Below, piece by piece: positions 17,529 to 29,325 of a DNA stretch of 64,000 bases. The stretch is taken from NCBI GenBank assembly GCA_018432615.1, contig JAHDSQ010000006.1, positions 82,432-146,431 of the forward strand, read 5' to 3'. How positions within the stretch are numbered: the stretch's first letter is position 1; every line of letters starts with the position of its first letter. The notes under the pieces were generated by a model, which was given only the letters and a program-made list of their open reading frames with translations, was not told the origin of the DNA and ran no database searches. The DNA is from Clostridia bacterium. Its GTDB lineage: Bacteria > Bacillota > Peptococcia > DRI-13 > SM3-B62. The position numbers were made by a program, and so were the translations under genes.

Positions 17529-19659
17529 CTTCAAATCCTCCTTCACATAAAGCATTTATATCAATCTGAAAATCAACAGCAATGTTTTTCAGATCTGTAA
17601 TACATGCGGGATTTTCAGCACCAATTCCAAACTGAATGGCGCGTGATAACTCAGCTGAGATAATGGAAAGACGTTTATCATTTTCGTCTTCTGGAATTAC
17701 AGGCATTGTTATAGCATCGTATAAGTAGGCAAAATGCTTACCTGGATACTTTCTAAGTATACGGCCGCGTCGTTGAATAAACTCTCTGGGGTTTTGTGAT
17801 GAAGCAAGGATTAATGCATGCGTAGCGGATGGTATGTCTACGCCTTCGTCCAAACATTTAATAGATACTAGAATGCCGCCATTCGACTCAAAGTAGGATA
17901 GTGTTCTTTCTCGATCACCTTCCATCTCAGCATAATACTCGTAAGCATCAAAACCCTCAGCTGTAGCAGCACGTAAGACAGCGTTTAATTGCGTGATATT
18001 ATCGCAATATACTATCCATTTTTGGCCGGTACGATAGTGGGCTTTTAGTATTTTTATTGCAAGTGGTACTTTTCCAGCCGCATTCTTAACAATTCTCGCA
18101 CGATTAATGAGTAGCCGCTGAAGCCTTGAATCAATCTGTCTTTCTGCTCTGGGATCGGATGTAAAAGATACTTTGCCTTTATTTCCAGATCTTGCAATAA
18201 GCTTCTTAATTTCATCTGTGATCTCATTCCATTGCTTCTGTTCAATATCGGTTAGATAGAGTTTTTGAGGATAATAGAAATAGCGCGTGAGTACTCCGCT
18301 ACGAATAGCATCTTCCAGTGTAAATGGCGGTGGTATGATACCTTTAAAATAGTCTAAAAGCGCCTGGGTTCCTATTGGGTCACCATACCTATATGGCGTA
18401 GCTGACAAACCAAGTCGTGCACCAGTATGAAGACTTAACACGTTACGACGACGCGGACTACCAAGTCGATGAACTTCATCAGCAACAAGGAATAAGTGGT
18501 CACCCTGTGCGACATTTTGTAAGAAATCTGGAGATGATGCTGTATCCATTGTTGAAATGATAATCCGATTCTGATTACTCCTGCTACTTGTCCAGGCACG
18601 CAAAGCTCTAGGCTTACGCCAATCTGTATGGCCATCTCCGCAAAGTAAATAGTAAATTTGAATACCGGTGAGGGTCTCTTGCAATTCTTTGTGCCATTGA
18701 GTTAACAACTCACGTGATGGAACAAGAATTAAAACCGTTTCATGCCGGTCTAATGCGTTACGAATTGCGCATATTGCAGTAAAAGTTTTTCCGCTACCAG
18801 TAGCATGTTCGAAAATTCCACGACGACCGTTCTTGACCCATGCTTCCAAAGCATTCGCCTGATGCGGTCGAGGTGTTTTCGCATCGGGGTTTTTATTGGG
18901 CTTCCATTTATTCGCTACATTTTCGATAACTTTAATTTCATCCAATAACTTTTCCCAATCAGCACCTTTTGCTTTGTTTTTAAGAACTTCACGTACTGCT
19001 GTTGGAAATGGGAATACTGTAACACCCACCACAGTGTTGAGCCATAAGCGATTGAAAAAGTCCATCACATTATCCACTCTTGTTTTGTCACGAGCATCTG
19101 CCCAATTAGGAAACACATCGATTGATTCAATATTACCGTCAGATGATAAACCCTTAAAAGTTTCGTTCATGGAGCCACGAAAACCAACAGCATTTCCTAG
19201 TCTATCTGAGAAGATTCCGACCTTGTCATGAAACAACCGCCTAGCATCCGCTTCAGTATGCTCTCCTGGAATTGCGATTTTTACATCAATAATTCCTTCC
19301 GAGACCAAATAAGCTAATAATCTGGCTGGAGCAGATAATTCCGGGCTTTCGAACAAAGCCTCAACTTCTTTTTTTAAAGAATCTGCGAGTATTTGATCAT
19401 TTCGTGCTGAATAACCTTCAGAGAGAGCTATCTCATCAGCCTCAGATATGTAAGGAGAGCAAACAAGGCGCATCTTTCCGCCATTCTGAATGAATTCTTT
19501 TAGCGCACTCCATGCAATAATATAGATTGTACTGCCAAAATAGCCAGAGATACGATCATATTTTATTGAAGAGCGCATACATGGAAGATAAAATTCATTT
19601 GCAATGTCGTTCTCAGCTTTGGTATATGAGGCTTTAAAATCAAAATCATTAAGATTCAT
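17515..19659 (-). CDS. PLD-nuclease/SF2 helicase fusion, defence operon
   Basis: A 714-residue fusion. Residues 1-210 resemble a phospholipase-D-type nuclease domain (FHDKVGIFSD ... GFRGSMNET, an HxK...GSxN pattern). Residues 270-680 form a superfamily 2 helicase: Walker A ATGSGKT, DEVH box VADEVHRLG, motif III LSATPYR and motif VI QRRGRILR. PLD-helicase fusions are known in restriction and defence loci, where they translocate on and cut DNA. ATG 19659 follows AAGGAGG by 6 bp and overlaps the upstream gene by 11 bp. With the flanking methyltransferases this is the likely effector. Confidence 0.87.
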   Translation of the reverse strand: MNLNDFDFKASYTKAENDIANEFYLPCMRSSIKYDRISGYFGSTIYIIAWSALKEFIQNGGKMRLVCSPYISEADEIALSEGYSARNDQILADSLKKEVEALFESPELSAPARLLAYLVSEGIIDVKIAIPGEHTEADARRLFHDKVGIFSDRLGNAVGFRGSMNETFKGLSSDGNIESIDVFPNWADARDKTRVDNVMDFFNRLWLNTVVGVTVFPFPTAVREVLKNKAKGADWEKLLDEIKVIENVANKWKPNKNPDAKTPRPHQANALEAWVKNGRRGIFEHATGSGKTFTAICAIRNALDRHETVLILVPSRELLTQWHKELQETLTGIQIYYLLCGDGHTDWRKPRALRAWTSSRSNQNRIIISTMDTASSPDFLQNVAQGDHLFLVADEVHRLGSPRRRNVLSLHTGARLGLSATPYRYGDPIGTQALLDYFKGIIPPPFTLEDAIRSGVLTRYFYYPQKLYLTDIEQKQWNEITDEIKKLIARSGNKGKVSFTSDPRAERQIDSRLQRLLINRARIVKNAAGKVPLAIKILKAHYRTGQKWIVYCDNITQLNAVLRAATAEGFDAYEYYAEMEGDRERTLSYFESNGGILVSIKCLDEGVDIPSATHALILASSQNPREFIQRRGRILRKYPGKHFAYLYDAITMPVIPEDENDKRLSIISAELSRAIQFGIGAENPACITDLKNIAVDFQIDINALCEGGFEDADE

Positions 19660-20197
19660 AAGCAGCCTCCTTTATATTTCTCTGTAATATTTCAACACGG
19701 CATTTAATGGCATCTAATAGATAGGGTGCACGTGCCGCTATTATGACTTCATTATTATTCCGTTTACTAAGCGCGGTCGGTGAAGCAAGGGCCTTAATGA
19801 TTGTCTCGGATTTCACTTGCATGTTAGCGCTGTATGCAAAATCGTCATGTTTAAACGCATCCCATAGGACAAAAACCCCATCCTTTATTTCATCTGCAAT
19901 GCATATATAAGCGGCAAGGATAGGCATTCTACCATCTGAAAAATCAAGCGATGCACGGCTGCCACGAGTCTGTTCAGGTAGTATTATTTGTATTTTGTAC
20001 TCGTCTAAGGCGCGGCCACCAGGTGGGTTCGTACCATTAAATATATACACTCGCAGCTTAATAGGGAACGGAGGCTTAAGGTCAACAAGAAGCGGAGCAG
20101 AATTATAACTGCTATGTCTTAATACTGCATCGCCAAGGGCTTCAATAAATAGCTGGTGCATCTGCCATTTTCTAAGTTTGGGAGGATTTCTGCTCAT
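19649..20197 (-). CDS. Defence-operon protein of unknown family, possible nuclease or recognition subunit
   Basis: Not confidently recognised. The product (182 residues from ATG 20197; a TTG lies two codons upstream) contains GGRALDEYKIQI near residue 65, an E-x-K pattern preceded by acidic residues that could belong to a PD-(D/E)xK nuclease fold, and later VLWDAFKHDDFAY. The spacing is not diagnostic. It sits between the methyltransferases and the helicase with overlaps on both sides (26 bp and 11 bp), so it is an integral part of the system and a plausible site-recognition or cleavage subunit. Confidence 0.6.
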   Translation of the reverse strand: MSRNPPKLRKWQMHQLFIEALGDAVLRHSSYNSAPLLVDLKPPFPIKLRVYIFNGTNPPGGRALDEYKIQIILPEQTRGSRASLDFSDGRMPILAAYICIADEIKDGVFVLWDAFKHDDFAYSANMQVKSETIIKALASPTALSKRNNNEVIIAARAPYLLDAIKCRVEILQRNIKEAAYES

Positions 20198-21047
20198 TGC
20201 CAATCACCATCCCCTGAATAAATTCTTTAAAGCAATTTTCGGCTGTTTTAACATATGAGTCTACAATATCAAAGCCGATGAATTTCCTTTTAAGCGATAA
20301 AGCTGCATAACCGGTAGTACCACTGCCCATCCAAGGATCAACTACGAGATCGCCTTCTTCAGTCGTTGCTTTTATATATTTATCTGGTAGGTATATTGGT
20401 TGCGTTGCCTGATGTTCTCCAATCTTAGCTGACACCCCTCCACTAATAACATTTCTAGGCAATGCTCCTATAGGGTGGGGCTTAATCCTTTTGTTTTTAC
20501 GCACGTATGTTAGTCCATTAGACCGGGGCTTATATTCATATTCTTCATATGTCTTTATACTATGCGACTCATAAGGCCGTCGAATAGCATCAAGATTTAT
20601 TGTCCACTTCGGCGATTTTGAGAACCAGAGATTTTGTTCATACGCATCTTGGCATGCAACACGAAGTCCTGTTGGAACAGGATTTTCTTTTACCCAAATT
20701 TCAATGTCTACACAGGATAGGCCCCATTCTTCCTCCATCAAGATTGCTAGCTTTTCCACCACCAACGAACGTTTTGATGATGCTTTAGATGTAGATTTTT
20801 CACGATTCGCCTTAACGTTGATAACAATAAAACCATCATCACGTAACTTTAAAACTGCCGCATTGAGAAAAGGTGTCATTTTATCGATATATTCAGAAGA
20901 CTTCCAAACACCATAATCTCGTTCCGCATTAGGATACGGTGGGGAACCGTATATGAGCTTAATGGATTTGTCTGGTAATCTTAACATGCCCTCCGCACCA
21001 TCACAGCAGGCTACTGCATAATCAGAGCTCTGTAAAAGCTCAATCAT
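20172..21047 (-). CDS. Beta-class DNA methyltransferase (SPPY type), second of a pair
   Basis: DNA amino-methyltransferase of about 291 residues. Motif IV is YGSPPYPN near residue 37 and motif I (SAM binding) is DPWMGSGTTGYAA near residue 245, the order typical of the beta class. SPPY rather than DPPY suggests N4-cytosine as target; N6-adenine is not excluded. ATG 21047 is chosen because AGGAGG precedes it and because it overlaps the stop of the upstream methyltransferase by 8 bp; the in-frame GTG 21059 abuts the ribosome site. The two enzymes share an operon but differ in sequence, as expected if each modifies one strand of an asymmetric site. Confidence 0.9.
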   Translation of the reverse strand: MIELLQSSDYAVACCDGAEGMLRLPDKSIKLIYGSPPYPNAERDYGVWKSSEYIDKMTPFLNAAVLKLRDDGFIVINVKANREKSTSKASSKRSLVVEKLAILMEEEWGLSCVDIEIWVKENPVPTGLRVACQDAYEQNLWFSKSPKWTINLDAIRRPYESHSIKTYEEYEYKPRSNGLTYVRKNKRIKPHPIGALPRNVISGGVSAKIGEHQATQPIYLPDKYIKATTEEGDLVVDPWMGSGTTGYAALSLKRKFIGFDIVDSYVKTAENCFKEFIQGMVIGNEQKSSQT

Positions 21048-21942
21048 TTTCCTTCTCACCTCCTAATTCTATTTCCATTCTCGCTGTTGCTAGTTCGCAG
21101 TAATCTGGATTTAAATCGATACCAATCCAGCGACGCCCATTCCGAGCAGCTGATACCGCTGTTGTCCCTGAGCCTGAGAATGGGTCTAGTACAATATCAC
21201 CTTCTTTAGTACCAGAGAGAATGAAAAACTCCGCCAGTTTTTCAGGGAAGCGAGCTGGATGTGTAATGCCTTTTTCCTTACATAGTTTGAAGAATATATC
21301 ATTACTGCTTGTATTACCGAGCTCTATTACTGTACCGGGGTCAGAGCCTCCATTGTCAGTCCATACCTTTTCGCAGTTAAAGTTATGAGTGCTAGGTCTA
21401 GTGTTCTGAGAACGATCACCTTTTCCCTTGCCCATCAAATACTTCTGCATATCCTTACTATAAGGTTTTCGAATAGGATCGAGGTTGAATGTCCATTCGT
21501 TAGTTTTTGAAAACCAGAAGCAGTATTCATGTGATTTCTTTGTGCGACCATAGCCACCACGTGAAAAGACATTAGGCGGTGTTGCAGGGTTATACCAAAT
21601 ATAGTCACGAACTAGATGAAAACCAATCTTCTTGCATAGAAAAACTACGAGTTCAAAGACATAAAGATGTTGAAATCCATCTACAATCTTATCGCTTATA
21701 TTCAGAACGAAACTCCCATTATCTTTAAGAACGCGTTTTATCTGGCGCGCTTTGGGAGCAAACCACTTTATGTAATCATCTGGTGATATTGAAGATTCCT
21801 CAGTTCCATAATTACGTTGATTTGCATATGGCGGTGAAGTAAAAACTAAGTCGATACTCTTGGATGGTAAATCCTTAAGTATCTCTTCGCAGTCACCAAC
21901 AATAAATCTATTTTCAAATGAGTCTATTTTTCTTTTCGACAA
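21040..21942 (-). CDS. Beta-class DNA methyltransferase (SPPY type), first of a pair
   Basis: DNA amino-methyltransferase of 300 residues with motif IV FTSPPYANQRNYG near residue 35 and motif I DPFSGSGTTAVSAA near residue 255. TSPPY is characteristic of N4-cytosine enzymes. The start is TTG 21942, since AAGGAGAGG lies just upstream; an in-frame ATG at 21963 precedes that ribosome site and is unlikely. It is the first modification gene after the ImmA-like gene, 33 bp downstream, and overlaps the second methyltransferase by 8 bp. Confidence 0.9.
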   Translation of the reverse strand: MSKRKIDSFENRFIVGDCEEILKDLPSKSIDLVFTSPPYANQRNYGTEESSISPDDYIKWFAPKARQIKRVLKDNGSFVLNISDKIVDGFQHLYVFELVVFLCKKIGFHLVRDYIWYNPATPPNVFSRGGYGRTKKSHEYCFWFSKTNEWTFNLDPIRKPYSKDMQKYLMGKGKGDRSQNTRPSTHNFNCEKVWTDNGGSDPGTVIELGNTSSNDIFFKLCKEKGITHPARFPEKLAEFFILSGTKEGDIVLDPFSGSGTTAVSAARNGRRWIGIDLNPDYCELATARMEIELGGEKEND

Positions 21943-21975
21943 AGTACACCTCTCCTTGTGCAATAAGTATAAAAA

Positions 21976-23370
21976 CTAAGCCATAATAGGCTCAGCGATC
22001 ATCACTGTAATTTGTTTAATCGGCAACAACCCATTATTAGAAAGGCAAGCCAATATTGTGTTCGCTTCCCGTGTAGCAACTACCTGTTCATTACTTCCGC
22101 GAACAAATATAATCATATCATCCCCGTCGTATATGGCTATACTGTCTTCTAAGGCAACATATAAATCCATCGCCTTTTCCCACATGCCTACGGTCATTAC
22201 AACAAATGGCCAATATTCGCACTCAATGTAGTCATCGTAAACATCAGGTATTTTTACGTTATTGACAGAGAGCCTTTCTGGCAATATATCATAAATCTTT
22301 TTAAATGTCGCTTCGGATCCGCAATATGGACAAAACCGACAATTCCCAGGCAAAATTCTATTTTCTGCTGTGCAGTGGTTTGTTGTTGGTGCGCCACACT
22401 TTGTACATTTGCCTGACAGATTAGAAAATCCATAATTTTTACATACTGGGCAATACAATAGTTTGTCATCTTTTATAGGTATCTCATAGTATTGCTTACC
22501 CTGCATATATAGCTCGGAATGAATATCTGAAATATTGCTGATGACAAACATGCCCTTATGATGCTTGTACGGAGAATACATATATGGCTCTGGCACCTCA
22601 GAGCCACACACCGGGCAATACCTATATGTATCATCGGTTATGAAACTATTACAATTCTTGCATATACGGCATTCTTTACAAAGCTCTGGATAGATACTCG
22701 AAGGAAAAAATCTGCAAGCAGTGTTGTGTACCACTTGATAAAATTCTCCAAAAGCTAAATGCTTGTAAAAATTCCGTAATATTTTAACTTCACTCGGGTA
22801 ATACCCATAGTCAGCCTGTTTGATTTGTTTTAGGCGCTTCTCAGCCGCATCTTTTGAGATATCACAAATTAGACTTATTCCTTGTGGGCTGTTATGAAAA
22901 TCAAAGCGACTAATAATGGTCTTTGGTGCAAGTAGTTCAGCTGCAAAACAGTGTGCTTCAACTTCCAAAACGCTGTGTTCTTTCTCTGTCAAACCGCGCC
23001 TGTTTAAGGCTGTTGCATCAAATTCCGTTAGGTGGCCCATGACTATATGGCCAATTTCATGGGCTAAAGTCCAACGTATACGTTGAGGATTGTCTACTCT
23101 TTCGTCATAGACAATCAAATAATCATTCGTGCCTCTTTGAATAACAGTTTTTGCTTCGGCCTTATCTCTGTCTAGATACAACGGATCATCAACGCCGGTA
23201 TTTACATGAAGTTCAAACCATCCCACAAGATGCCATTCTGGAAAACATCTAATTATTTCCCTGGGATCTACTGGGAATTTACAAATATCTAGATTGGCAA
23301 GAAGATCATATGCTCGTTGCCTAACAAGCGAAAACCGTGGTTTATTCGGAATTACGGTTTTTCTTAACAT
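21976..23370 (-). CDS. ImmA/IrrE-type metallopeptidase with zinc-ribbon array
   Basis: Probable site-specific protease that cleaves the adjacent XRE repressor, as ImmA does for ImmR in ICEBs1. The peptidase domain is N-terminal with the HExxH zinc motif AHEIGHIVMGH near residue 107 and a downstream glutamate region. Unusually for the family (often 130-270 residues) it has about 464 residues, because of two or three CxxC-type zinc ribbons (CKECRICKNC ... CPVC, then CPVC ... CTKC ... CPYC, about residues 230-360) and an unrecognised C-terminal domain. It overlaps the repressor gene by 29 bp and leads into the methyltransferase genes, so it belongs to the lysogeny operon. Confidence 0.87.
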   Translation of the reverse strand: MLRKTVIPNKPRFSLVRQRAYDLLANLDICKFPVDPREIIRCFPEWHLVGWFELHVNTGVDDPLYLDRDKAEAKTVIQRGTNDYLIVYDERVDNPQRIRWTLAHEIGHIVMGHLTEFDATALNRRGLTEKEHSVLEVEAHCFAAELLAPKTIISRFDFHNSPQGISLICDISKDAAEKRLKQIKQADYGYYPSEVKILRNFYKHLAFGEFYQVVHNTACRFFPSSIYPELCKECRICKNCNSFITDDTYRYCPVCGSEVPEPYMYSPYKHHKGMFVISNISDIHSELYMQGKQYYEIPIKDDKLLYCPVCKNYGFSNLSGKCTKCGAPTTNHCTAENRILPGNCRFCPYCGSEATFKKIYDILPERLSVNNVKIPDVYDDYIECEYWPFVVMTVGMWEKAMDLYVALEDSIAIYDGDDMIIFVRGSNEQVVATREANTILACLSNNGLLPIKQITVMIAEPIMA

Positions 23371-23746
23371 ATTCTAAATACATCTCCACTTGTTCTACTA
23401 GTTTATCGTAATCAGAATCCTTTAAGTCAGAACTACGAGCAAGGCCATCAATAATCTTCTGCGCAGTTTGTTGTTGTTTTTCAGTTTTTAGATCGGGAAA
23501 CACTTTTTCAATCAAAGGAATATCGTGTTCGTCAGTCTTATACCCAGCTATACGAAGCATTTCATCTTTTGGTACACCTAAAGCCTCTGCAAGTGCGTTA
23601 AGCACCGGTATAGATGGATTACAGCGTTCTCCGTTTTCAATCCGATGAATTTCGGAATGGCTTATACCACATTTTTCAGCAAGAGCGCGTTTTGACCATT
23701 CTTTAGCTAGCCGTCTTTCCTTAACGAAATCGCCTAAAGTACTCAT
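23342..23746 (-). CDS. Prophage XRE-family repressor (CI/ImmR-like)
   Basis: The 134-residue product has an N-terminal helix-turn-helix (residues 5-65: KRALAEKCGISHSEIHRIENG) and a charged C-terminal tail. It is the first gene of the minus-strand lysogeny/defence operon, is paired with an ImmA/IrrE-type peptidase, and is divergent from a Cro-like gene, so it is the likely lysogeny repressor, inactivated by proteolysis rather than RecA autocleavage. ATG 23746 follows AAGGAGG. Likely operators are the GGTTACA boxes in the divergent promoter region. Confidence 0.9.
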   Translation of the reverse strand: MSTLGDFVKERRLAKEWSKRALAEKCGISHSEIHRIENGERCNPSIPVLNALAEALGVPKDEMLRIAGYKTDEHDIPLIEKVFPDLKTEKQQQTAQKIIDGLARSSDLKDSDYDKLVEQVEMYLEYVKKNRNSE

Positions 23747-23837: not shown

Positions 23838-23866
23838 TTGACATAAGGTTACACTGGATATATAAT
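23838..23866 (+). promoter_or_regulatory. Early lytic promoter (plus strand) with GGTTACA box
   Basis: Perfect TTGACA (23838-23843), 17-bp spacer, perfect TATAAT (23861-23866). GGTTACA (23847-23853) starts three bases after the -35, the same offset as in the opposing promoter. A related GGTGACA lies at 23883-23889 before the ribosome site. These are the likely repressor/Cro operators. Confidence 0.85.
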
Positions 23867-23911: not shown

Positions 23912-24367
23912 ATGGTACCGAATCGTGAATACATATTGGAACTTATACGTAAGCGAGGCTGGTCGGCAAACAAACTTGCTATGAAAATGGACATTTCACG
24001 TGCTGAAGTAAGCCGATTTTTAAACGGAAAGCGCACAGGCGGGAAAAAGCTTATAGGTGGTTTATTGAAAGCATTCCCAGAAGAGAGCGTAGAAGCGCTT
24101 TTTATTTTACCCAGAGTGGAACCTAATGTCAACAAATACAGCTTACAGTGTTCCGAAACGAAACTAATGGAAAAGTCTAAACATTATGAAGTAAAGAAAA
24201 ATATGAAACCAGTTAAACATCCTAATGCTCATCATCTAGCTTGTAGTATAGATGAAGCCACAGGGACAATAGAAATCATTGACGGTAAATGTGTTACAAC
24301 CCTTATTGTACCTCCAGGTCCAATAGAGGTACGACATACAACAAAACAAGCAAATAACACAAGTTAA
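23912..24367 (+). CDS. XRE-family Cro-like regulator
   Basis: First gene of the rightward operon. The 151-residue protein has an N-terminal helix-turn-helix (WSANKLAMKMDISRAEVSRF, residues 18-37) and a longer C-terminal part of unknown function. Position opposite the repressor, next to a consensus promoter with a shared operator box, suggests a Cro-like role, switching off the lysogeny promoter during lytic growth. ATG 23912 follows AAAGGAGGGG. A possible extra operator-like AGGTTAGA occurs after its stop at about 24390. Confidence 0.83.
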   Translation: MVPNREYILELIRKRGWSANKLAMKMDISRAEVSRFLNGKRTGGKKLIGGLLKAFPEESVEALFILPRVEPNVNKYSLQCSETKLMEKSKHYEVKKNMKPVKHPNAHHLACSIDEATGTIEIIDGKCVTTLIVPPGPIEVRHTTKQANNTS

Positions 24368-24421
24368 CAATGTTTTCACCTTATGGTACAGGTTAGACCA
24401 TTTTTCATAACTAAATTTGAG

Positions 24422-24523
24422 TGAAATCCGCCCGAACGCAATACGGCAGTGCGGAACTCCAGGTCAAGGAGTTCACCTGCCGTATTTTCGTTTATGCGGA
24501 TTTTGCGGCTCTGGCGGATTTCA
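24422..24523 (+). ncRNA. Triple-nested hairpin leader RNA before the sigma-like gene
   Basis: Three nested perfect stems: TGAAATCCGCC (24422-24432) with GGCGGATTTCA (24513-24523); AATACGGCAG (24440-24449) with CTGCCGTATT (24477-24486); GAACTCC (24454-24460) with GGAGTTC (24468-24474). The whole lies in the 182-bp gap before the ATG at 24550 and is followed by the ribosome site AAAGGAG. It is a plausible cis-acting structured RNA; no family is recognised. Confidence 0.55.
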
Positions 24524-24549
24524 AATCTGAAAGCCAAAGGAGCCAAAAA

Positions 24550-25047
24550 ATGATAAGACATGTCAAAACAAGCAAAAAGAATCGCACTTCCTACATTTAT
24601 TACGATGCTGATGGTCGAAAGGTAATTGAACTTGTACCTGGCCAAGACGGCATCACCGAGGCTGACATCGCACTTCTTCATTCAATGGATGATGAAGAGG
24701 TAGACGAGCAGCGGCGATATGATTACCGAATCGCAGAACACCTGGATGCTTTCCATGATGGCGAAGGCGAAGAGGCTGGCGATCGTAATAAACGTCTGGC
24801 CGATAACCGGACAAACCCAGAAGCCGTTCTTATAGCCAAAGAAGAAGAGATTGAGCATGAAGAAAGACTGTCCCGACTTCGTGAAGCAATGGAGACCCTT
24901 GAGTCCCAGCAGCGCATTCTGTTTGAGAAGAAATACATATCAAAACGCTCTAATACAGACATTGCCGCTGAAGAAGGGGTAAGTGAGGCAGCAATCCGTA
25001 ATCGCCTAAAAAAGATACATCAAAAGCTTCTAAAATTCTTTCCATAA
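24550..25047 (+). CDS. Sigma-70-like (region 4) transcription factor, phage-encoded
   Basis: The 165-residue product ends in a sigma region-4-like helix-turn-helix (LSRLREAMETLESQQRILF then NTDIAAEEGVSEAAIRNRLK). The N-terminal half (SYIYYDADGRKVIELVPG) is common in small phage and ICE sigma-like proteins. It may redirect RNA polymerase to phage promoters or act like ArpU-type late regulators; target sequences are unknown. ATG 24550 follows AAAGGAGCC. A longer frame extends back into the hairpin region but has no ribosome site and would run through the structured leader. Confidence 0.8.
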   Translation: MIRHVKTSKKNRTSYIYYDADGRKVIELVPGQDGITEADIALLHSMDDEEVDEQRRYDYRIAEHLDAFHDGEGEEAGDRNKRLADNRTNPEAVLIAKEEEIEHEERLSRLREAMETLESQQRILFEKKYISKRSNTDIAAEEGVSEAAIRNRLKKIHQKLLKFFP

Positions 25048-25121: not shown

Positions 25122-25331
25122 ATGAGTCTGAAACACAAGGTTACTATCAAAGTTGCCAAACCCAACGGTATCCGTGATCCCGTGATAAAAGGCGGCTCTA
25201 AGAGTATTCGCAGTAAGCTTTTAAACTGGCTGTTTGGCGAGAAAGTCGGTGTATTCGTGATTACACCGGGCGACTCAGTTGAAACTGTCGAGATCAAGGA
25301 AATCAAGGAAGGAGGCGTGGAGCATGAGTAA
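25122..25331 (+). CDS. Small basic phage protein of unknown function
   Basis: Not recognised. The 69-residue product (MSLKHKVTIKVAKPNGIRDP at the start) is basic in the first two thirds and acidic at the end. ATG 25122 is preceded by AAAGGAGACAAAAC. It lies between the sigma-like gene and the DUF2800 gene in the early operon and overlaps the next gene by 8 bp. Confidence 0.7.
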   Translation: MSLKHKVTIKVAKPNGIRDPVIKGGSKSIRSKLLNWLFGEKVGVFVITPGDSVETVEIKEIKEGGVEHE

Positions 25332-25647
25332 AATCAAACTGCATCTTGATGTAGTCACGGATCTGCGATCTCTGGCGGACAGCTTGCAGGCAGTGGCTGA
25401 TGCAATGGCAAGTAATGAGCCTGTCGATGCATCACACCCTGAAACACCCGCTCAGGTACCTGCTCAAAAGTCAGAGGAAAAGGCAGTTACATTGGAGCAA
25501 GTGCGTGCAGTGTTGGCTGAGAAGTCACATGACGGTTTTACAGCTGAGGTTCGAGGCCTTCTTGAAAGGCATGGTGCGTCAAAACTCAGCCAGATCGACC
25601 CAAGCAGGTATGCCGCCCTTCTTGCAGAAGCGGAGGCATTAAAATGA
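25324..25647 (+). CDS. Early phage protein of unknown function
   Basis: The 107-residue product starts MSKIKLHLDVVTDLRSLADS and contains a low-complexity Pro/Ala linker, followed by a helical C-terminal half (TLEQVRAVLAEKSHDGFTAE ... HGASKLSQIDPSRYAALLAE). The C-terminal pattern is seen in phage proteins annotated only as hypothetical. ATG 25324 uses GGAGGCGTGGAGC. The stop overlaps the next start, so it is co-translated with the DUF2800 gene and probably belongs to replication or recombination. Confidence 0.72.
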   Translation: MSKIKLHLDVVTDLRSLADSLQAVADAMASNEPVDASHPETPAQVPAQKSEEKAVTLEQVRAVLAEKSHDGFTAEVRGLLERHGASKLSQIDPSRYAALLAEAEALK

Positions 25648-26780
25648 GTGAACATGCTATTCTATCTGCTTCCAGTGCATATCGATGGTTAGCCTGTACT
25701 CCGTCGGCACGGCTGGAATTAGAGTTCGATGATAACTCCGGTGCTGCTGCCGACGAAGGAACAGCTGCACACGCGCTTGCTGAACACAAGCTCCGTAAAG
25801 CCTTAAAGATGCGTTCCAAGAAGCCGGTATCCAAGTACGACAGCGATGAGATGGATGCTCATACGGACGATTATGTGTCTTTTGTGTTGGAACAGATCGC
25901 TCAAGCAAAGCTGAAATGTTCTGACCCGATGGTACTTATCGAACAGAAGCTGGACTTCTCCAAATATGTTAAGGATGGCTTCGGTACAGGAGATTGCGTG
26001 ATTATAGCCGATGGAACGCTTCACATTGTGGATTTCAAATACGGTCAGGGCGTTTTGGTCGAAGCTGAAGATAATCCGCAGATGAAACTATATGCTCTCG
26101 GTGCTTTGGAACTGTTTGATGGCATTTACGATATCAGCGAAGTGTCGATGTCCATTTTCCAGCCAAGACGCGAAAACGTAAGCACTTATACGGTTTCAAA
26201 GGAGTTGCTTTACAAATGGGCAGAGGAAGTCCTTAAGCCTACTGCAGACCTAGCCTATGAAGGCGACGGTGAGTATGTCCCCGGAGAGCATTGCCAGTTT
26301 TGCAGGGCAGCGGTGAAGTGCAGAGCAAGAGCTGAGTCAAAGATGAAGCTGGCAGCTTTCGAGTTTGCTCTGCCGCCATTGCTATCCGACGAGGAGATAG
26401 CTGAAATACTTGACTCAATCAGTGACTTGACGATCTGGGCCAATGAAATCATTGCCTATGCCACCGATGCGGCTGTGAACCACGGTAAACAGTGGCCTGG
26501 CTTCAAGGTGGTTGAGGGGCGCTCAATTCGTAAGTATTCCGACGAAGAAGCTGTCGCTGCTGCAGCAAAGGCAGCCGGATATCGTGACATCTACAGGCAG
26601 AGTCTTATCACTATCACTGAGATGGAAAAGCTGATGGGAAAATCAAAATTCAATGAAGTCCTCGGTGGGCTCATTATCAAACCGCCGGGTAAGCCGACGC
26701 TAGTTCCGCTTTCGGATAAGCGTCCACCTATGAACATATCGAATGCAAAAATTGATTTTATGGAGGAATGTAAATCATGA
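25644..26780 (+). CDS. DUF2800 protein, RecB/Cas4-like PD-(D/E)xK nuclease
   Basis: The 378-residue product has the DUF2800 layout: SASSAYRWLACTPSARLE at the N-terminus, GTAAHALAEHKLRK near residue 39, then GTGDCVIIADGTLHIVDFKY (about residues 114-133), which supplies the D and ExK-like catalytic positions of a PD-(D/E)xK exonuclease, and a C-terminal cysteine cluster EHCQFCRAAVKC that could hold an FeS cluster as in AddB/Cas4. In phages it pairs with a ssDNA-binding DUF2815 protein and a DNA polymerase, as here, and is thought to act in recombination or replication. ATG 25644 overlaps the preceding stop. Confidence 0.87.
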   Translation: MSEHAILSASSAYRWLACTPSARLELEFDDNSGAAADEGTAAHALAEHKLRKALKMRSKKPVSKYDSDEMDAHTDDYVSFVLEQIAQAKLKCSDPMVLIEQKLDFSKYVKDGFGTGDCVIIADGTLHIVDFKYGQGVLVEAEDNPQMKLYALGALELFDGIYDISEVSMSIFQPRRENVSTYTVSKELLYKWAEEVLKPTADLAYEGDGEYVPGEHCQFCRAAVKCRARAESKMKLAAFEFALPPLLSDEEIAEILDSISDLTIWANEIIAYATDAAVNHGKQWPGFKVVEGRSIRKYSDEEAVAAAAKAAGYRDIYRQSLITITEMEKLMGKSKFNEVLGGLIIKPPGKPTLVPLSDKRPPMNISNAKIDFMEECKS

Positions 26781-27355
26781 CAAATACTGCTAACCGTATA
26801 AACCATAATCCTAGAAATAACCCCACGAAGGTCGTTACCGGTGTTGTCCGCCTGTCCTATGCCAACGTGTGGGAGCCAAAGTCAGTAAATGGAGGCACTG
26901 AAAAATATAGTGTCAGCCTGATCATCCCGAAGTCTGATACCAAGACCATTGCGGCTATCAACGCAGCTGTGGATGCCGCCATTGAGGAAGGCAAGGGCAA
27001 ATTCGGCGGGAAGATACCGAATAAAGCAGTTCTTAAGCTTCCCTTGCGTGACGGTGACATCGATCGTCCTGACGACGAAGCCTACGCCAACAGCTATTTT
27101 GTTAATGCTAATTCCACCACGGCTCCCCAGATCGTTAACCGTCAACTTGAGCCAATCCTTGACCGCTCGGAGGTTTACTCCGGCGTATATGCTAGAGTGT
27201 CCATAAACTTCTATGCCTTTAATTCCAACGGCAACAAAGGTATTGCGTGTGGTCTCGGCAACATCCAAAAAATCAGAGACGGTGAGCCGCTGGGCAGTCG
27301 CTCTAATGCAGTAGACGATTTTGCCACTGACAGCGACGATGACTTCCTGTCATGA
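26777..27355 (+). CDS. DUF2815 ssDNA-binding-like protein
   Basis: The 192-residue product matches the DUF2815 phage family (VVTGVVRLSYANVWEPKSVNG near the start; EVYSGVYARVSINFYAFNSNG later), predicted to have an OB fold and bind single-stranded DNA. It ends with an acidic tail (ATDSDDDFLS) resembling the partner-binding tip of SSB. It sits between the DUF2800 nuclease and the DNA polymerase, each overlapping by 4 bp, forming a replication cassette common in Firmicute siphophages. Confidence 0.86.
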   Translation: MTNTANRINHNPRNNPTKVVTGVVRLSYANVWEPKSVNGGTEKYSVSLIIPKSDTKTIAAINAAVDAAIEEGKGKFGGKIPNKAVLKLPLRDGDIDRPDDEAYANSYFVNANSTTAPQIVNRQLEPILDRSEVYSGVYARVSINFYAFNSNGNKGIACGLGNIQKIRDGEPLGSRSNAVDDFATDSDDDFLS

Positions 27356-29325
27356 GAGAGCTTTTTATAGACATTGAGACATATAGCGGAACAGACCTCG
27401 GTAAATCCGGGGTCTATCGCTATTCAGAAGCACCGGACTTTGAGGTGATCCTCTTTGGATACTGTGCAGATGATGGCGAAGTACATGTTATTGATCTGGC
27501 TTCGAAAGAATCTCTACCGCCTGAAGTTCTAGAAGCACTAATAGACGAAACTGTCATGAAATGGGCACACAACGCACAGTTTGAACGGGTATGCTTGTCA
27601 CGCTGGTTAGAGCGCCAAGGTATCAACTTAAAAGCTCTGAATGGAAATAGCAACTTCCTTAGCCCTGCATCTTGGCGTTGCACGATGGTGTGGTCTGCCT
27701 ATCTCGGATTGCCCCTCTCGCTGGAAGGTGCCGCTTTGGTAACAGGTGCGGAGAAACAGAAACTGACCGAGGGTAAAGAGCTCATTCGATATTTCTCCTC
27801 CCCCTGTAAGCCTACCAAGGCCAACGGTGGACGCACACGCAACCTGCCAATTCATGCTCCAGATAAGTGGGAGAGATTTAAGGAATATAACGCCCGAGAT
27901 GTAGAAACGGAAATGGCAATAATGAAGCGACTTTCTAAGTTTCCTGTACCGGAGAATGAGTGGAAGTACTACATCCTTGATCAGGAGATTAATGATCGGG
28001 GCATCTGTTTAGATATGGATCTGATTAGAGAGGCCATCAGTTGTGACAGACGATCAAGGGCTGCTCTTACCGAAGCTATGCGAGAAATTACCACCATGGA
28101 CAATCCCAACTCTGTTGCACAGATGAAGGCGTGGCTCGCTGAAAATGGCTTGGAAACTGAAACACTTGGTAAATCGGCTGTCAAGGAATTACTGAAAACA
28201 GCGCCAGAGAATCTCCGAGAGGTGCTGACATTACGGCAAGACCTCGCCAAAAGCAGTGTCAAGAAATACACGGCTATGGAGAATGCAGTATGTTCAGACG
28301 GCAGAGCCAGAGGTCTATTACAATTTTACGGTGCAAATCGAACCGGACGATTTGCTGGTAGACTGATTCAGGTTCAAAATCTTCCTCAGAACCATTTACC
28401 TGATCTGGTTCAGGCTCGGCAGCTTGTAAAGTCTGGTGACCTCGATACTTTGGAAGTCCTATACGATTCCGTACCAAGCGTACTATCGGAGCTTATCCGC
28501 ACTGCCTTTGTACCTAAGCCTGGCTTCAAGTTTATCGTCGCTGATTTCAGTGCGATTGAAGCCCGTGTCATTGCATGGCTTGCAGGAGAGCAATGGAGAA
28601 ACGAGGTGTTCTCCACCCACGGGAAGATCTACGAAGCATCGGCGAGCCAGATGTTCCGCGTTCCTATAGAGGAAATCACAAAAGGCAGCCCCCTTCGGCA
28701 AAAGGGCAAGATCGCTGAGTTGGCTCTCGGTTACGGTGGTTCGGTCGGAGCTCTCAAAGCAATGGGCGCTCTTGATATGGGCCTTAATGAAGAAGAACTT
28801 CAACCCTTGGTAACGGCGTGGCGTGCAGCTAACCCTAACATAACCCGACTATGGTGGGATGTTGACCGTGCGGCAAAAACAGCAGTGCGTGAAAAGACAG
28901 CAGAACAAACACACAACATCCTCTTTGAATACCGCAGTGGATTTCTCTTTATTACACTCCCATCTGGCAGGAGACTAGCTTATGTTAAGCCACGCATCGA
29001 AGTTAACCGCTTTGGCTCCGAATCGGTAACATACGAAGGAGTTGGTGCTTCGAAGAAATGGGAGCGCATCGAAAGCTACGGCCCGAAATTTGTCGAAAAC
29101 ATCGTGCAGGCCATAAGCCGAGACATTCTCTGTTATGCAATGCAACAGCTTAATAGTATGGGTTTTTCCATTGTTATGCATATCCATGACGAGGTGGTCA
29201 TAGAGGCATCCTGTGATGTGTCACCGGAGAATGTTTGCCGCATTATGAGTGAAACACCGCCTTGGGCGGAGGGCTTATTGCTTCGAGCCGATGGCTTTGA
29301 ATGTCAGTTTTATAAAAAAGACTGA
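27352..29325 (+). CDS. Phage family A DNA polymerase
   Basis: Replicative DNA polymerase of 657 residues. The N-terminal 3'-5' exonuclease domain begins with FIDIETYSGTD. The polymerase domain shows motif A VADFSAIEARVIAWLAGE (about residue 400), motif B RQKGKIAELALGYGG and motif C MHIHDEVVIEA with the catalytic Asp-Glu. There is no 5'-nuclease domain, as usual for phage enzymes. ATG 27352 overlaps the DUF2815 gene by 4 bp. The gene is intact and probably copies the phage genome together with the VapE-type primase-helicase downstream. Confidence 0.95.
   Translation: MRELFIDIETYSGTDLGKSGVYRYSEAPDFEVILFGYCADDGEVHVIDLASKESLPPEVLEALIDETVMKWAHNAQFERVCLSRWLERQGINLKALNGNSNFLSPASWRCTMVWSAYLGLPLSLEGAALVTGAEKQKLTEGKELIRYFSSPCKPTKANGGRTRNLPIHAPDKWERFKEYNARDVETEMAIMKRLSKFPVPENEWKYYILDQEINDRGICLDMDLIREAISCDRRSRAALTEAMREITTMDNPNSVAQMKAWLAENGLETETLGKSAVKELLKTAPENLREVLTLRQDLAKSSVKKYTAMENAVCSDGRARGLLQFYGANRTGRFAGRLIQVQNLPQNHLPDLVQARQLVKSGDLDTLEVLYDSVPSVLSELIRTAFVPKPGFKFIVADFSAIEARVIAWLAGEQWRNEVFSTHGKIYEASASQMFRVPIEEITKGSPLRQKGKIAELALGYGGSVGALKAMGALDMGLNEEELQPLVTAWRAANPNITRLWWDVDRAAKTAVREKTAEQTHNILFEYRSGFLFITLPSGRRLAYVKPRIEVNRFGSESVTYEGVGASKKWERIESYGPKFVENIVQAISRDILCYAMQQLNSMGFSIVMHIHDEVVIEASCDVSPENVCRIMSETPPWAEGLLLRADGFECQFYKKD

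Follow-up and report, generated by a model that had tools for sequence, protein, structure and literature searches.

Strand-exchange attenuators, whether of the trp type or of the erm type that acts through translational attenuation, follow a four-strand logic. In the antitermination systems of lambda (tR1/nut) and HK022 (put), a terminator-bearing RNA occupies the interval from the cro position to the replication genes. The DUF2800 RNA motif, said to have been described by Weinberg and colleagues in 2017, is reportedly a structured RNA of Firmicutes phages found near DUF2800 genes. In phage Mu, the Com protein binds a hairpin adjoining the translation inhibition structure of the mom mRNA and promotes its translation (PMC6483171). 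The locus described here resembles com-mom in that a small protein gene lies directly upstream and the start signals of the target mRNA are hidden by structure. It was found in the window, by which we mean the whole 64,000-nucleotide stretch of DNA analysed.

Structure and setting of the element

The locus is the early right operon of a prophage (Table 1), with its promoter placed between a divergent repressor-like gene and a gene for an HTH protein. The sigma-70 region 4-like gene, one relative of which occurs in a phage filed under Ca. Heliusvirales, is followed by genes for two small phage proteins (phrog_7234 and phrog_408). Farther to the left, on the minus strand at 19649-21963, two adjacent genes (20172-21059 and 21040-21963) overlap and have SPPY-type motifs of DNA methyltransferases; with a 184-residue neighbour they adjoin an M78 peptidase gene. 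This segment has the look of cargo for restriction-modification or defence, placed next to the immunity region of the prophage.

Table 1. Positions of the element, its parts and the surrounding genes in the window.
Feature	Position	Strand	Basis or remark
Divergent repressor-like gene	23342-23746	-	
Early rightward promoter, TTGACA-17-TATAAT	23838..23866	+	consensus match 12/12
HTH (Cro/C1-like) protein, carrying the type A partner domain C-terminally	23912..24367	+	HTH_3
Partner domain (LACSIDEATGTIEIIDGKCVTTLIVPPG...) within the HTH protein	24203..24346 (approximate)	+	profile match
Strand 1, shared 5' arm	24421..24438	+	pairs with strand 2 (MFE) or strand 3
Inner stem-loop, terminator-like, then TTTTCGTT	24440..24486	+	folding, alifold, U-tract count
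Strand 2, near partner of strand 1	24489..24506	+	covariation, 23 relatives
Strand 3, far partner of strand 1	24505..24523	+	includes anti-Shine-Dalgarno GGCTCT, 24507-24512
Strand 4, Shine-Dalgarno region AAAGGAGCC	24536..24544	+	closed-state partner of strand 3; alifold unaided
11-bp outer stem	TGAAATCCGCC 24422-24432 with GGCGGATTTCA 24513-24523		perfect
10-bp stem	AATACGGCAG 24440-24449 with CTGCCGTATT 24477-24486		perfect
7-bp stem	GAACTCC 24454-24460 with GGAGTTC 24468-24474		perfect
Sigma-70 region 4-like protein, 165 residues, controlled gene	24550..25047	+	Sigma70_r4_2, E 1.4e-8; phrog_11138
Downstream operon	25122..29325	+	phrog_7234, phrog_408, DUF2800 exonuclease, ssDNA-binding protein, DNA polymerase A (family A)

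The first-pass annotation had described a hairpin at 24422-24523 built of three perfect nested stems of 11, 10 and 7 bp, and had judged that much complementarity unlikely by chance. All three stems are present where it placed them, and the region 24402-24549 folds at -63.4 kcal/mol, compared with -36.6 (sd 3.4) in 200 shuffles, none of which came as low (z -7.8). The 11-bp outer stem, however, is absent from the minimum free energy (MFE) fold, in which the 5' arm (24421-24431) pairs with a nearer copy at 24496-24506, and 24507-24512 pairs with 24539-24544, masking the Shine-Dalgarno sequence AAGGAG of the ATG at 24550. The full element runs from 24421 to 24549, up to the start codon, and the hairpin first described is one half of it. 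The 5' arm has two exclusive partners, making this a two-state element in which the 11-bp stem belongs to one state. We number the participating strands 1 to 4 (Table 1) and call the state with pairings 1:2 and 3:4 closed, and that with 1:3 open.

The sequence of the element and its gap is single-copy in its own genome, with no repeats or second copy. Rfam gave no match at gathering score for the window and 17 relatives, and a lax threshold added chance-level matches only. A literature search that covered few subscription papers found the work on Mu Com and no description of the element; as far as Rfam and the literature covered show, the RNA is new. One other reading of the gap, in which an open frame beginning with GTG at 24421 would extend the sigma-like protein at its N terminus across the hairpin, was rejected because several relatives have only a short open frame there or none.

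Relatives, sequence types and exchange

Searching with the sigma-like protein gathered about 55 loci, nearly all of which have a long rod hairpin with a T-run, followed by a hairpin across the Shine-Dalgarno sequence. The rods fall into five mutually unalignable sequence types, A (the type in the window) to E. Types A to D, unrelated in sequence, have their position and their switch logic in common; type E lacks the 1:3 pairing. In type A the closed state is favoured, by 6.6 kcal/mol (about 7) in the window; types C and D show little energy difference between the two states. Modelling of the open state leaves the Shine-Dalgarno sequence wholly free in the window and, in some relatives, no more than partly free.

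Cassettes are exchanged between phages. The sigma-like genes of the window and of locus L004 are 97% identical as DNA, and their rods are of types A and B, with 39% aligned identity; at L015 and L017, genes 90% identical as DNA follow rods of types D and E. Mapped on the protein tree, the types require no fewer than 18 changes (the least possible number is 4 and the shuffled mean 22), and well-supported branches force several of these. When RNA patterns alone were used for searching, the cassettes also turned up ahead of two further sigma-like families, so that the downstream genes comprise three sigma-region-4-like families in total.

Two cases of co-residence were seen. The 70-kb contig IMGVR_UViG_2667527408_000002 carries a type C and a type A cassette (L060 and L100) with different sigma-like genes, and one genome (G324) has two type A cassettes. 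Upstream of type D and E elements (for example at L036, L048 and L055), a palindrome-like motif, CGGACA...TGTCCG, is repeated 3' of an M78/HTH gene (phrog_4031) and is possibly an operator.

Conservation of the alternative pairings

In nearly every element of types A to D, strand 1 has its complement in strand 3, located 3' of the T-run (z -2.1 to -9.0 relative to shuffles), while type E showed no 1:3 pairing above shuffles. When strands were swapped between relatives, the cognate combinations paired better than the swapped ones for 1:2, 1:3 and 3:4 in type A and for 1:3 and 3:4 in type D. For these two types none of 2000 permutations was as good when all distinct elements were used, and 0 to 8 of 2000 were when one element was kept per strand 1. 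Type B by itself, with six sequences, gave no significant swap test for 1:3 or 3:4.

Covariation was examined in an alignment of 23 type A elements; without guidance, alifold predicts from it the pairings 1:2 and 3:4 together with the inner stem. For 1:2 the covariation score was 0.293 against 0.171, a value that none of 500 shuffles reached; for 1:3 it was 0.160 against 0.126, reached by 1 of 500. One of the shuffle controls for these pairings leaves the relatedness among the 23 sequences in place. Both 1:2 and 3:4 show compensatory changes across the 23 relatives, and 1:3 is retained where 1:2 is broken. Column 9 of strand 1 illustrates this: a C is kept in 22 of 23 sequences even though strand 2 mostly offers an A (unpaired in 16 of 23), because this C pairs with strand 3, as it does in 22 of 22 scorable sequences. 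Many of the conserved pairs are G-U, which points to an element that acts as RNA rather than as DNA.

Two mutually exclusive structures, 1:2 and 1:3, are thus both conserved, and the start region of the controlled gene is masked by an RNA structure that covaries. The first-pass annotation had proposed regulation of the sigma-like gene, a proposal that stems lacking compensatory changes in relatives were to count against; the changes found, in the pairing of anti-Shine-Dalgarno with Shine-Dalgarno and in those of the 5' arm, support it well. Its hairpin is real and regulatory, though it did not recognise that there are two states, that the RNA is tied to a small protein encoded upstream, or that types are exchanged.

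A terminator-like hairpin

Across the 23 type A elements, the eight bases that follow the inner stem hold a mean of 6.1 T, compared with 2.0 in the background, and T-runs after a GC hairpin are present in all types. By its anatomy, the inner hairpin with its U-tract is supported as an intrinsic-terminator-like feature. This agrees in part with the first-pass annotation, which had suggested a terminator, but the U-tract of the window is weaker than most, and a simple scan for consensus terminators does not call the window's hairpin. The antiterminator offered alongside is unlikely in the classical sense, because transcription passes the U-tract before it reaches the competing far strand. The free RNA that it also suggested could still arise by termination.

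Linkage to a small upstream protein

RNA type tracks the small protein gene located just upstream rather than the gene downstream. The partner of type A is a protein of 48-70 residues, typically about 50 (VRNLDGKLVCRVDEATGTVEIKIKDCITLI...), encoded by a separate gene in most relatives. In the window it forms part of the HTH protein, where the partner-domain profile matches residues 108-136 (E 2.5e-8 for one sequence), and the same fusion occurs at G078/L122. For an independent test of linkage, a covariance model of the type A RNA was run on 398 genomes of the phylum, and 13 of them yielded 14 matches. All 14 have the partner domain directly upstream, in two cases as an HTH fusion, the window included. 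Conversely, a profile of the partner protein finds 12 loci in the same 398 genomes, with the RNA at 12 of 12. RNA and partner protein are one cassette.

The type B partner is a zinc ribbon with a CxxC/CxxC pair, present at all 16 loci with enough flanking sequence, and type C follows another zinc ribbon. A match to the PHROG family "translational regulator" (best 1.3e-6) was obtained for nine of the ten type B proteins; we take this family, from its description, to be Mu Com. The 398 genomes contain four Com-like matches, two with an intact type B RNA, one with a shortened RNA that lacks the anti-Shine-Dalgarno part and one in which the gene is broken. No comparable small gene stands directly upstream of elements of types D and E, which must be driven otherwise or have lost their partner.

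Some further features of type B deserve record. At L140 (1-900), a Com-like gene is followed by a shortened type B rod with its terminator, lacking the anti-Shine-Dalgarno strand, ahead of an HTH gene; this is perhaps a stripped-down version, which would be informative about the part that the protein needs. In the type B elements read, L140 included, an unpaired, invariant ACCGAGCA lies directly 5' of strand 1 and the rod. It has CGAGCA in common with the Mu mom target and is a candidate protein contact. A basic protein of 47-51 residues (phrog_5079, ...SLLRDGRTSAKTKSVAGSALSQTKP...) is usually encoded between the Com-like gene and the type B RNA, and at L009 it stands alone ahead of a type D element.

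The type A protein is modelled confidently as a five-stranded all-beta domain (pLDDT 93.5). Fold searches with this model returned weak, unrelated matches only, and sequence searches place the protein in no recognisable RNA-binding family, so that a common origin with Com is only a guess. Homology to the Com-like zinc ribbons was considered and rejected: the profile comparison was not significant, and the two have no PHROG in common.

Proposed mechanism and alternatives

We think it probable that the locus carries a portable protein-plus-RNA cassette, a com-mom-like switch that gates translation of the phage sigma-like regulator and perhaps also its transcription. In the closed state, strands 1 and 2 would be paired, enclosing the terminator-like hairpin, and strand 3 would mask the Shine-Dalgarno sequence of the sigma-like gene; in the open state, strand 1 would take strand 3 and free the Shine-Dalgarno sequence. 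Because the closed state comes first in the order of transcription and is energetically favoured in the window, the gene would be off by default, which makes activation likelier than repression. The small domain encoded just upstream on the same transcript would act by binding the RNA and moving it into the open state, and the sigma-like regulator, with the replication genes behind it, would be made only after the partner protein had accumulated. We infer the binding by the partner, the direction and timing of its action, termination and any coupling to transcription from this arrangement.

A rather unlikely alternative is antitermination, in which the replication operon would be separated from the early regulator by an attenuator made of the inner hairpin and U-tract, with the small protein acting on RNA or polymerase to allow read-through and the Shine-Dalgarno hairpin serving only to mute stray read-through. 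The T-rich tracts of type A and of the other types fit such a scheme, as do the placement of the element after the first early gene and the cassette at L140, which keeps rod and terminator with a Com-like gene and dispenses with the anti-Shine-Dalgarno part. The scheme leaves unexplained, however, why strand 1 should be complementary to a strand downstream of the U-tract, and the window's own tract is weak and its hairpin passed over by the simple scan.

That conserved 1:3 pairing also weighs against passive insulation, which we regard as quite improbable: a terminator and a Shine-Dalgarno hairpin would silence lytic genes in the lysogen with no regulated switch, and the linkage to the protein would be mere neighbourhood. 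The closed state is indeed the most stable fold, and type E elements resemble such a design, but the linkage is strict in both directions and holds across differing downstream genes. A link to a protein gene is left unexplained by a trans-acting small RNA, a very improbable reading in which the terminated transcript exposes strand 1 to pair in trans with strand 3 of read-through mRNAs, conferring an immunity-like specificity as does the CI RNA of phage P4. Strand 1 of type A does lie outside the terminator hairpin and is complementary to strand 3, and the sequence types are mutually non-complementary, with cognate energies of -23.6 against -13.7 for permuted strands; the same pairing nevertheless works equally in cis, and a separate stable RNA is without support. 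A palindromic DNA element (a replication origin, recombination site or mobile element) is extremely improbable despite its location in the phage replication region and the exchange of sequence types, given the many conserved pairs that are G-U in the RNA sense, the fixed orientation and spacing to the Shine-Dalgarno sequence, and the single copy.

Beyond the single locus, the protein-plus-RNA switch may belong to a family in Firmicutes phages whose members are interchangeable and mutually orthogonal, an extension we regard as possible though short of probable. Unrelated small proteins (an uncharacterised all-beta protein, Com-like zinc ribbons and a second zinc ribbon) would each have their own unrelated RNA, all exchanging strands over the Shine-Dalgarno sequence of a sigma-region-4-like regulator, with whole cassettes swapped at the start codon and possibly serving as a determinant of specificity or immunity. 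If true, RNA switches encoded by phages would gain a new class, one that has its own dedicated protein partner; the logic of Mu com-mom would reach into the early lytic decision in many prophages of Firmicutes, and an unannotated protein family would acquire a likely job. Several unrelated cassettes performing one task would lend themselves naturally to use as orthogonal parts in gene control, and their exchange prompts the question, open to testing, of why phages diversify them.

Comparison with known systems

Translational control by a small phage protein encoded upstream is already known, as is strand-exchange attenuation. Type B comes closest to Mu com-mom, its partner being a Com-like zinc ribbon, whereas the type A partner in the window lacks the CxxC/CxxC pair and is not demonstrably related to Com. 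The RNAs described here, at about 130-200 nt, also differ from the mom system in their terminator-like hairpin and strand exchange, and the genes they control are sigma-like regulators rather than mom. As in strand-exchange attenuators, 1:2 and 3:4 are set against a long-range pairing that governs access to the Shine-Dalgarno sequence, but the upstream gene encodes a folded, conserved protein instead of a stalling peptide, and the types are wholly different in sequence. Lambda tR1/nut and HK022 put have a terminator-bearing RNA in the equivalent position; the strict linkage to a small protein and the anti-Shine-Dalgarno pairing are extra here. Unlike the DUF2800 RNA motif, the element precedes the sigma-like gene and is separated from the DUF2800 gene by three genes, and no Rfam family matched it in the window or the 17 relatives. 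What is new is the combination, the partner family of type A, and the interchangeability of unrelated cassettes.
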